DNA of 15,115 bases from a bacterium (lineage in GTDB: Bacteria > JAHJDO01). Below are positions 8,086-10,469 of the stretch, piece by piece. The stretch spans positions 1-15,115 of the forward strand of contig JAUWOV010000043.1 of the NCBI GenBank assembly GCA_030611945.1, read 5' to 3'. The notes under the pieces were generated by a model. The model did no database searches. It had not been told where the DNA came from and saw nothing but the letters and a program-made list of their open reading frames with translations. Both the position numbers and the translations under genes were made by a program. Position 1 is the first letter of the stretch. Every line of letters starts with the position of its first letter.

Positions 8086-8716
8086 ACTGTTTTCTAAACT
8101 AAGAGCAAATTTCATGGCAGGTATTTTAGTTATACTGCCTCTGGTTATAACATACAAAATTGTTAAATTCATAATTGTAAAAGCAAAAGTGCTGCATTTT
8201 GCAAATGTTGTTACACCTGAATGGGTAGAGCATCCTATATATTTCAGATATACCATGATAGGGATAGCAGTGCTGGCAATACTGGCGGCAATCTTCATAA
8301 TACTGACCGTTATTGGAATGCTTGCAAGGAACGTTATTGGAAAACGCTTAATACTTTTTGGAGAGAGCATCTTAGCAAGAATTCCAATGGTAAATAAGAT
8401 ATACAGAGCAGTTCAACAAATTAGTCATGCCTTTGTAGGTAAAGTAATTTTTACTCGCGTTGTTTTATTACAATATCCGCGCAAGGGAATTTATTCCATG
8501 GGATTTGTAACTTCAGATACAAAAGGCGAAATAGCTTCTGAAATTTCCAAGAACTCAATTAATATATTTTTGCCTACAACGCCAAATCCAACCTCAGGAT
8601 ATCTATTGTTTGTACCTGAGAAGGACACAATTCCACTCTCTATGAGTGTTGAAGATGCCATGAAATTAGTGATTTCAGGTGGTGCAGTTACACCAAATTA
8701 TAAAAATGCGGACTAG
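8078..8716 (+). CDS. DUF502 family membrane protein
   Basis: A 212-residue protein matching the DUF502 family, whose function is not established. Two long hydrophobic helices are visible at about 13-33 (FMAGILVILPLVITYKIVKF) and 60-88, with the conserved GMLARNVIGKRLI and IPMVNKIYRAVQQ segments after them. A soluble C-terminal domain follows, with VVLLQYPRKGIYSMGFVT, FLPTTPNPTSGYLLFVPE and a SVEDAMKLVISGG segment, all typical of the family. ATG 8078 has AAGAAGGAA upstream at 8062-8070. It overlaps corC by 8 bp and lptC by 11 bp, implying translational coupling within an envelope operon. Confidence 0.9.
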   Translation: MNKLFSKLRANFMAGILVILPLVITYKIVKFIIVKAKVLHFANVVTPEWVEHPIYFRYTMIGIAVLAILAAIFIILTVIGMLARNVIGKRLILFGESILARIPMVNKIYRAVQQISHAFVGKVIFTRVVLLQYPRKGIYSMGFVTSDTKGEIASEISKNSINIFLPTTPNPTSGYLLFVPEKDTIPLSMSVEDAMKLVISGGAVTPNYKNAD

Positions 8717-9221
8717 GTTATGCACATTTTTAGTTATATTAACATTAGTGATAATGTTTAGTGTAGTGGCAGGTTTGAAACCTGCTATTTCAGAAGAAAA
8801 AATACAGGAGTTTTCGCTTACTAAAACTGATGAGGTTAATAAGAAGTGGAACTTAGAAGCAGAAAGCGCTGATCTATCTAATGATCCAATAATAAAGCTA
8901 TATAAAGTAAAGCTATCTATTTTTGAGAAACAAAAAATAACAACTCGCTTAACAGGAGAACAAGGCTATATCAATAAAAAAACCGAAGACATCCATCTTG
9001 AAAAAAATATCATTGTCAGAAGAGTGGATGGTACGCAAATAAAAACAGCATATATTGACTGGATGGCAAAAACAGAAACTTTTAATACAGAAGCTAAAGT
9101 TTTTATAACACGTAAAAACATAGAGCTTACCGGGTATGGTCTAAGCGCTGATCCGGGATTTAAAACTATGTGTATTAAAAAATTTCCTGTAATGGAGATA
9201 AAAAGGGAAGGCACAAAGTGA
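8706..9221 (+). CDS. lptC: LptC-like LPS export protein
   Basis: Predicted LptC, the single-pass inner-membrane protein that passes lipopolysaccharide from LptB2FG to periplasmic LptA. From ATG 8706 it has 171 residues, close to the roughly 190 of E. coli LptC. Residues 4 to about 24 form a signal anchor (hydrophobic, after MRTR). The remainder is a beta-strand-rich OstA/LptC-type domain, visible as alternating segments such as KKWNLEAESADL, TTRLTGEQGYIN, DIHLEKNIIVRRVDG and IELTGYGLS. Sequence identity in this family is low, so the call also rests on position before lptA and lptB. The upstream in-frame GTG at 8679 would lengthen the N-terminus inside DUF502 and lacks support. Part of the anchor is encoded by a palindromic repeat. 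Confidence 0.82.
   Translation: MRTRLCTFLVILTLVIMFSVVAGLKPAISEEKIQEFSLTKTDEVNKKWNLEAESADLSNDPIIKLYKVKLSIFEKQKITTRLTGEQGYINKKTEDIHLEKNIIVRRVDGTQIKTAYIDWMAKTETFNTEAKVFITRKNIELTGYGLSADPGFKTMCIKKFPVMEIKREGTK
8765..8789 (+). repeat. Palindrome inside the lptC signal anchor
   Basis: The core GCAGGTTTGAAACCTGC (8769-8785) is a perfect 8-bp inverted repeat about a single G. Allowing G-U pairs, the mRNA stem extends by four more pairs to 8765 and 8789. It encodes the end of the membrane anchor (VVAGLKPAI). The shape resembles dispersed palindromic repeats, but no second copy is in this window. Confidence 0.6.
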
Positions 9222-9306
9222 CAAAGGCACATAGGCACAAAGTAAAAAAAATGTATTTTCAATTACTTAAAAACTCTGTGCCTCTGTGCCTTTGTGCCTT
9301 TGTTCT
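9210..9306 (+). repeat. Inverted array of degenerate 8-bp units at the lptC/lptA junction
   Basis: The left arm (9210-9241) is four tandem copies of a GGCACAAA-like unit: GGCACAAA, GTGACAAA, GGCACATA, GGCACAAA. The right arm (9275-9306) is four units of the reverse complement: TCTGTGCC twice, TTTGTGCC, then degenerate TTTGTTCT. Stretches 9221-9243 and 9273-9295 pair at 21 of 23 positions around a 29-nt loop. The array covers the lptC stop, the lptA GTG start and the codons of the lptA signal peptide. Confidence 0.85.
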
Positions 9307-9778
9307 TCTTTCCTCGCTCTCTATTCAACCTGCTGAAAATGAAATACAAAAAATAACAAGAATAACCAGTGATAAAATGGAAATGGATTGGAGTAAAAAT
9401 ATAGCTATTTTTATAGGGGATGCGTTACTTGTTGACGAGGATGGCAGGGTAGAAGCAGACAGAATGGAGGTTTTTTTAGTTGCTTCGGAAGAAGACGAGA
9501 ATAAAGAAGATATTGAAAAAGTTATTGCTACAGGGAATGTCAAAATTACAACTCCGGAGAGAAGGACAAAGTCCGGTAAAGCAGTATTCCATAAAAAAGA
9601 TGATATTCTCGTACTCTCTGATAATCCTGAAGTGTGGCAGAAAGGAACATGTTTTACAGGAGGAAGAATTACCTTTGATCTAAAAAAAGACACTATGGTT
9701 ATAGATAAAGACGTTCAGGGTTCTATTGAATCTTCTAAGGAGAAAGATGCAAATATTACAGACAAAAAATCTCATTAA
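9218..9778 (+). CDS. lptA: LptA/OstA family periplasmic LPS transport protein
   Basis: Predicted periplasmic bridge protein that carries LPS between LptC and the outer-membrane LptD. It has 186 residues, matching E. coli LptA (about 185). From GTG 9218 the N-terminus is a classic signal peptide: a basic stretch (MTKAHRHKVKK), a hydrophobic core (LCLCAFVLLSSLSI) and a probable cleavage before the ENEIQ region. The mature part shows the OstA pattern: ITSDKMEMDWSKNIAIFIGDALLVDEDGRVEADRMEVFL-like strands, VIATGNVKITTPERRTKSGKAVF, and DDILVLSDNPEVWQKG. An AGGGAAGG at 9204-9211 supports GTG 9218, which overlaps the lptC TGA (GTGA). ATG 9251 is an alternative without a visible Shine-Dalgarno. The C-terminus overlaps lptB by 32 bp. 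Confidence 0.88.
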   Translation: MTKAHRHKVKKMYFQLLKNSVPLCLCAFVLLSSLSIQPAENEIQKITRITSDKMEMDWSKNIAIFIGDALLVDEDGRVEADRMEVFLVASEEDENKEDIEKVIATGNVKITTPERRTKSGKAVFHKKDDILVLSDNPEVWQKGTCFTGGRITFDLKKDTMVIDKDVQGSIESSKEKDANITDKKSH

Positions 9779-10469
9779 GGAATATTCTCACAAGAGAGTA
9801 GTAGATAATCTAAGTATTCAGATTTGCACAGGAGAAATCGTTGGATTGCTTGGACCAAATGGCGCAGGAAAAACAACTACTTTTTACATGATTGCCGGTC
9901 TTATAAAACCAGATGGAGGTAAAATTCTCTTTAAAGATGAAGATATAACATCTTGTCCTATGTCAAAACGCGCAAGAATGGGACTAGGATATCTATCCCA
10001 GGAGCCTTCAATCTTCAGGAAACTTACTGTTAGAGATAACATTTTTGCAATACTGGAGACACTTCCTTTAACAAAAGAGGAACGTGAAAAAAGATTACTT
10101 GAATTACTTAATGAGCTTAATATTGCTCACCTAAAAAATCGCAAGGCTTATACACTCTCAGGAGGAGAAAAAAGAAGAGTGGAAATATCAAGAGCCTTAG
10201 TAACCCGACCATCTATTCTCTTGCTTGATGAACCCTTTACCGGAATAGACCCAATAGCTGTAGTTGATATACAGGGAATTCTTCAGGATCTAAAAAAAAA
10301 AGGCTATGGTGTGCTTATTACAGATCACAGTGTCAGAGAAACATTAAAGATTACAGACCACGCCTATATTATTCATGATGGACAAATCCTCACCGCAGGA
10401 ACCCCTAAAAAAATACTATCACACAAAGGTGCCCGCAAATCGTATTTTGGGGAAGAGTTTTCACTTTAG
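9747..10469 (+). CDS. lptB: LPS export ABC transporter ATPase LptB
   Basis: Cytosolic ATPase of the LptB2FG transporter that extracts LPS from the inner membrane. From ATG 9747 it has 240 residues (E. coli LptB has 241). Walker A GPNGAGKTT lies at 36-44, a YLSQEPSIFRKLTVRDN Q-loop segment near residue 86, signature LSGGE at 137-141, Walker B LLLDEP with D161-E162, and the switch His194 in ITDHSV. The sequence SQEPSIFRKLTV and the C-terminal YFGEEFSL are typical of LptB rather than of other ABC ATPases. AAGGAG at 9737-9742, 4 nt before the ATG, decides this start over an upstream in-frame ATG at 9726. The permease genes lptF and lptG are not in the window, which is common because they are often encoded elsewhere. 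Confidence 0.96.
   Translation: MQILQTKNLIKEYSHKRVVDNLSIQICTGEIVGLLGPNGAGKTTTFYMIAGLIKPDGGKILFKDEDITSCPMSKRARMGLGYLSQEPSIFRKLTVRDNIFAILETLPLTKEEREKRLLELLNELNIAHLKNRKAYTLSGGEKRRVEISRALVTRPSILLLDEPFTGIDPIAVVDIQGILQDLKKKGYGVLITDHSVRETLKITDHAYIIHDGQILTAGTPKKILSHKGARKSYFGEEFSL

Follow-up and report, generated by a model that had tools for sequence, protein, structure and literature searches.

The signal peptide of LptA in this bacterium appears to have been built from a dispersed repeat. In the window, the 15,115-nt stretch of DNA analysed here, lptA starts within one arm of an inverted pair of octamer arrays, and the other arm encodes the hydrophobic core of its leader. We propose, with a probability of roughly two in three (0.68), that this pair is a gene-less hairpin element resembling the intervening sequences (IVS) of rRNA, with inverted octamer arrays as its ends, and that it was co-opted as the lptA signal peptide.

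The two core arms at the lptC-lptA junction (9213-9243 and 9273-9303, 31 nt each) lie 29 nt apart and pair at 27/31 positions (87% complementary). A looser pair at the same junction has arms of 38 nt each (9208-9245 and 9263-9300), and TRF reports period-8 arrays at 9208-9242 and 9274-9303. The unit of both arms is a degenerate GGCACAAA octamer, inverted between the arms. Folding of 9190-9320 as RNA gave an MFE of -50.1 kcal/mol (z -7.3), compared with -23.9 +/- 3.6 for dinucleotide shuffles of the same segment (n=200), none of which (0/200) was as low as the real sequence. Arm pairing, array period and fold thus bear out the inverted octamer arms with a 29-nt loop described in an earlier note on this DNA. 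The note had also placed the lptC stop and the lptA GTG in the left arm and the coding of the signal-peptide region in the right, which coordinates and translation confirm: the TGA (9219-9221) and the GTG (9218-9220) overlap, the left arm supplies the C-terminal GTK of LptC, and the right arm encodes SVPLCLCAFVLL (Table 1).

Table 1. Features at the lptC-lptA junction (window coordinates).
Feature	Position	Strand	Remarks
Left octamer arm AAGGCACAAAGTGACAAAGGCACATAGGCACAAAGT	9208..9243	+	AAGG 6 nt 5' of GTG; lptC TGA; codes cationic n-region TKAHRHK
Spacer, predicted apical loop, 29 nt	9244..9272	+	In-frame ATG 9251-9253, alternative lptA start
Right inverted octamer arm ACTCTGTGCCTCTGTGCCTTTGTGCCTTTGTTCT	9273..9306	+	Codes hydrophobic h-region SVPLCLCAFVL
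Whole inverted-array element, gene-less	9208..9306	+	Predicted mRNA hairpin
lptC	8706..9221	+	Pfam PF06835, E 3.5e-15; ends inside left arm
lptA (LptA/LptD_N domain)	9218..9778	+	Pfam PF03968, E 1.2e-14; start within left arm
lptB-like ABC ATPase	9747..10469	+	Pfam; downstream, same gene cluster as lptA

In the predicted hairpin the lptA GTG is paired in the stem and the ATG lies in the loop. With the GTG sequestered in this way, translation of lptA would require either coupling to lptC or use of the ATG at 9251 in the loop. That the hairpin may modulate LptA synthesis, as the earlier note suggested, fits this modelled structure. That the hairpin is primarily a selected cis-regulator of lptA translation, with the encoded peptide incidental, seems to us very unlikely: the predicted fold is very stable and holds both candidate starts, but the hairpin is absent from congeners, and the arms occur at many unrelated genes, mostly singly and without a partner arm.

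We compared the leader with lptA of three congeners (G001, G003 and G004), where identity is 78-82% across the segment from residue 17 or 23 to residue 186. These genes open with MKIKNFTLISLICIIFGASFSIQAAEN or a like sequence; they lack octamers, and their signal peptide is a different and ordinary one. The lptC gene of G001 and G003 continues into GGAAGATACAAGTGAAAATTAAAAATTTTACC, and their lptA starts MKIKNFTLISL(I/V)CIIFG, again without octamers; the G004 match includes an upstream TAA and a rearranged junction, so the comparison rests mainly on G001 and G003. Because the congeners combine octamer-free genes with ordinary signal peptides, the signal in the window would be derived from the element, and an insertion-derived signal peptide at lptA is well supported by these alignments. 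No relative had the same protein segment without octamers, the counter-case named in the earlier note; the segment differs at the protein level too.

The two arms relate differently to the ancestral gene. The stretch from the shared KN to AEN measures 24 residues in both versions (KNFTLISLICIIFGASFSIQAAEN, KNSVPLCLCAFVLLSSLSIQPAEN), and the right arm aligns without gaps with the ancestral h-region codons; given the equal length, the right arm overwrote these codons. The extra sequence consists of the left arm and most of the spacer, added 5' of the h-region codons. Since the right arm replaced the old codons rather than interrupting them, simple transposition does not account for the arrangement. 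The start of the left arm resembles the ancestral lptA start, GGAAGATACAAGTGAAAA, and entry of the element by short homology is therefore possible, judging from the sequences.

The octamer belongs to a family dispersed over the genome. Searching for AGGCACANAGGCACANAG with <=2 mismatches returned 40 forward and 33 reverse matches (73), against 0 + 1 = 1 for the control, the same pattern read backwards; the congeners G002, G003, G001 and G004 had 25, 11, 6 and 1 matches, respectively. The common arm in this genome reads AAGGCACAAAGTG(A/G)CAAAGGCACATAGGCACAAAG (29 stretches read). Most copies are single arms without a partner, and five, including that in the window, are inverted pairs at close range whose spacers are unrelated. 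Gene junctions, called from ORFs rather than by a gene caller and in targeted stretches of the genome, account for 25/33 octamer places versus 18% of positions drawn at random from those stretches (p 1e-12). The genome search proposed in the earlier note therefore uncovered a family, enriched where genes meet. Coincidence of codons as the origin of the octamers is rejected because of this genome-wide family and the congener alignments.

Two other repeats adjoin octamer arms directly: CGTCCAGAGGACGACCAGCCTYTGGCTGG, another dispersed hairpin (L046 811-890, L045 490-520), and GTCCCCCTTTGAAGGGGGATT, a third repeat (L052 872-907, L059 863-897, L047 4339-4380, L136). Octamer arms also recur in gene clusters of the type II secretion and type IV pilus-like kind (L041, L050, L061, L066).

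At orthologous sites, many copies are additions to an octamer-free sequence. Locus L048 has 44 extra nt exactly 5' of an ATG compared with congeners, and a search for a target duplication at this clean site found none. Four relatives lack the inverted pair present at L041, hisF (L040) has gained 21 nt in frame, and in-frame arms lie inside hisF and cysS. Other copies are shared: those at L054, L045 and L056 are common to G002, and arrays or remnants are present at L042 in several congeners. The octamer element is thus a dispersed palindrome that lies in frame in conserved genes and is absent from the relatives' orthologues. Several copies have also taken over the start of a gene. At L061 and L062 an arm GTG stands in place of the ancestral ATG start (VAKAHRHK...), and at L054 the ATG became ACG, with an upstream ATG reading through the arm (MDKEKAQSDKGTQAQRKN). 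Since the ancestral ATG is lost at these three loci, the arms must be translated, barring unrecognised starts. Among the exported or membrane products whose N-terminus holds an arm are the T2SS K protein of L041, the PD40/TolB-like protein of L057, a T2SSB-like lipoprotein (L066), a pilin-like protein (L061), a lipoprotein (L062) and a secreted protein (L053), the last three types being read from sequence. At the folK-dapB junction (L047 834-988; orthologues L162, L163, L167) the unit differs by species, with an octamer pair here, AAATCCG-type arrays in G003, GGATTAAG-type arrays in G001 and none in G004.

These comparisons also bear on whether the arms formed locally, with no mobile element involved: slippage and inverted template switching would have started from a T/C-rich stretch of signal-peptide sequence, with gene conversion among similar sequences. 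The gap-free right arm at lptA, with 24 residues on each side of the comparison, and the likeness of the ancestral start to the left arm would both be expected from such a process. So would the PD40/TolB-like gene, where a congener already has a TTTGTG-like stretch, congeners hold one like TTTGTGTCTTTGTC, and local expansion rather than insertion is possible on the sequences compared. We nevertheless consider an in-place origin unlikely, as the left-arm sequence recurs at many unrelated loci and the additions at L048 and L041 are clean relative to congeners. An inserted repeat that became an export signal, as the earlier note had it, accordingly stands as far as the octamer-free congeners, the dispersed family and the octamer-free orthologous sites are concerned; the gap-free right arm is no simple insertion, and the repeat itself now appears to be one of a broader group of inverted 7-10-nt arrays flanking S23/IVP and GxxExxY genes.

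Why such a repeat should yield a signal peptide follows from how it is read. An ideal (GGCACAAA)n array translates to cationic (GTKAQRHK)n in all three frames and (TTTGTGCC)n to hydrophobic (FVPLCLCA)n, likewise in all three, since the unit length of 8 is not divisible by 3. An inverted octamer pair reads cationic and then hydrophobic from either side and is therefore signal-peptide-like by construction; in real paired elements, the cationic arm is interrupted by a stop in some frames. Judged by charge, hydropathy and residues, the predicted lptA leader has the features of a Sec signal peptide: an n-region charge of +6 or +1 depending on the start chosen, an h-region hydropathy of 2.60 (2.65-2.74 in congeners) and small residues (SSLSIQPA) before the LptA domain. 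A similar leader is coded upstream of folK (L047), whose product is a cytosolic enzyme and for which a downstream GTG could serve as start; the coding property by itself is therefore no proof of export.

The link to intervening sequences comes from the sole PF05635 gene of this genome, an S23/IVP (rRNA intervening-sequence protein) gene. It lies between inverted arms of the same octamer (C31:27034-27483), and the whole unit is absent from the orthologous site in G001 and G003; against the link, only one S23 gene within the genus carries this octamer. Across the genomes tested, which include several distantly related bacteria, inverted short-period arrays flanked 25/33 canonical S23 genes (105-145 aa) on both sides, the other 8/33 having no recognisable arms, and 9/13 GxxExxY genes, against 2/144 control ORFs, of which one was itself a recounted S23 element and the second a RAYT locus. 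Having octamers was part of the reason for choosing the first ten genomes, and less so for a second set of 31; in the latter, 9/28 tested loci, non-canonical S23 proteins included, reached z > 5 in shuffle statistics that treat loci as independent. Array periods were mainly 7 or 14, then 8, beside S23 genes and mainly 8-10 beside GxxExxY genes. The unit varies between elements yet matches between both arms within each. Genome G044 has CTGGTTC arrays in many places, among them an S23-bearing pair (C65), a gene-less pair (C125) and single arrays, and in G020 the GTTAACAG unit was found at its S23 locus only. In the literature library searched, a paper on the Coxiella IVS was the only one to bear on S23 or GxxExxY genes bounded by arrays, an absence that does not prove novelty.

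Two further arrangements were observed among these gene families. A GxxExxY gene (L109) and an S23/IVP gene (L086) lie within 2 kb on one contig (G001:C140), and G012 has repeated, close divergent pairs of ~100-aa S23-like genes without array flanks (L179, L186, L190, L192).

The repeat could instead be of REP/RAYT or MITE type, mobilised by a Y1 transposase, with the S23 gene a passenger lodged between two arms. We find this improbable. Y1_Tnp matches do occur in 5/5 genomes of the genus, and the RAYT locus is one of the two controls with inverted flanks; the best match in this genome is weak, however (E 1.1e-5). Moreover, where a REP would be a fixed hairpin, the arms consist of 7-8-nt units in tandem, and their unit sequence changes from element to element while agreeing within each. 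The weak Y1_Tnp matches of this genome lie on contigs other than that of the window. As for a MITE, L048 shows no duplication, and the enzyme search, limited to Y1_Tnp, identified neither a parent transposase element nor a mobilising enzyme for the octamer element.

Among known repeats, the cyanobacterial short tandemly repeated repetitive (STRR) heptamers are degenerate 7-nt tandem arrays that occur in many intergenic places; STRRs are not known to pair in inverted fashion or to be linked to S23/GxxExxY. The rRNA IVS with an S23/IVP gene (Coxiella, Leptospira, Salmonella) have terminal inverted repeats and a long stem, as does the window element. In the IVS of Coxiella, a terminal inverted repeat of 28 bp makes up the stem and tandem GACAGAT heptamers precede the S23 ORF, and the function and origin of 23S rRNA intervening sequences are described as unclear (PMC4990558). 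The ends of the window element are also short tandem repeats, but of period 8. The S23 ORF that IVS hold between their ends is missing from the window copy, with its 29-nt spacer, and present in the same-octamer copy on C31. IVS sit in rRNA genes and are excised from the transcript by RNase III, whereas the window element, likened to them by its DNA sequence, sits at lptC-lptA and other copies at protein-gene junctions. Rickettsia palindromic elements (RPE) are dispersed palindromic repeats found in frame in conserved protein genes (PMC2229807), and in both respects the octamer element is like them. RPEs are palindromes of 105-146 bp and are not described as short tandem arrays; unlike them, the octamer element supplies the N-termini of proteins, a signal peptide among them. 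Dyad-symmetric coding repeats associated with membrane-targeted proteins comprise 25-residue amphipathic domains in tandem (PMC2996958), in contrast to the 8-nt units here, which read alike in all frames.

We conclude that the window copy is likely a gene-less element of the S23 type, its mobility and its descent from such an element being what we infer from the array-flanked relatives. These relatives carry a gene for an S23/IVP four-helix bundle or a GxxExxY protein between such arrays, like 23S rRNA intervening sequences, and a gene-less element would have landed on the lptC-lptA junction in this species. The left arm would have brought AAGG-N6-GTG, a plausible ribosome-binding site and start, together with the TGA that closes lptC, and the old lptA signal peptide would have been overwritten by element sequence. 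Read through from left to right, the element would give a positive n-region and then a hydrophobic h-region, and selection may have kept the copy because the product was still exported, presumably by the element peptide.

More tentatively, inverted 7-10-nt arrays around S23/IVP and GxxExxY genes could represent an unrecognised and widespread class of mobile elements, the gene-less copies of which would act as portable start-plus-signal-peptide modules. We hold this broader proposal to be possible rather than probable; under it, units rewritten between elements yet matched between arms would point to templated copying of the ends. At lptA, the export signal of an envelope protein would have been rebuilt from a dispersed repeat in a traceable way and for a simple reason, namely that an inverted array whose unit is not divisible by three codes for a cationic and then a hydrophobic peptide. 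The same observations may tie 23S rRNA intervening sequences to dispersed elements with array ends, for which many genomes are open to computational survey.
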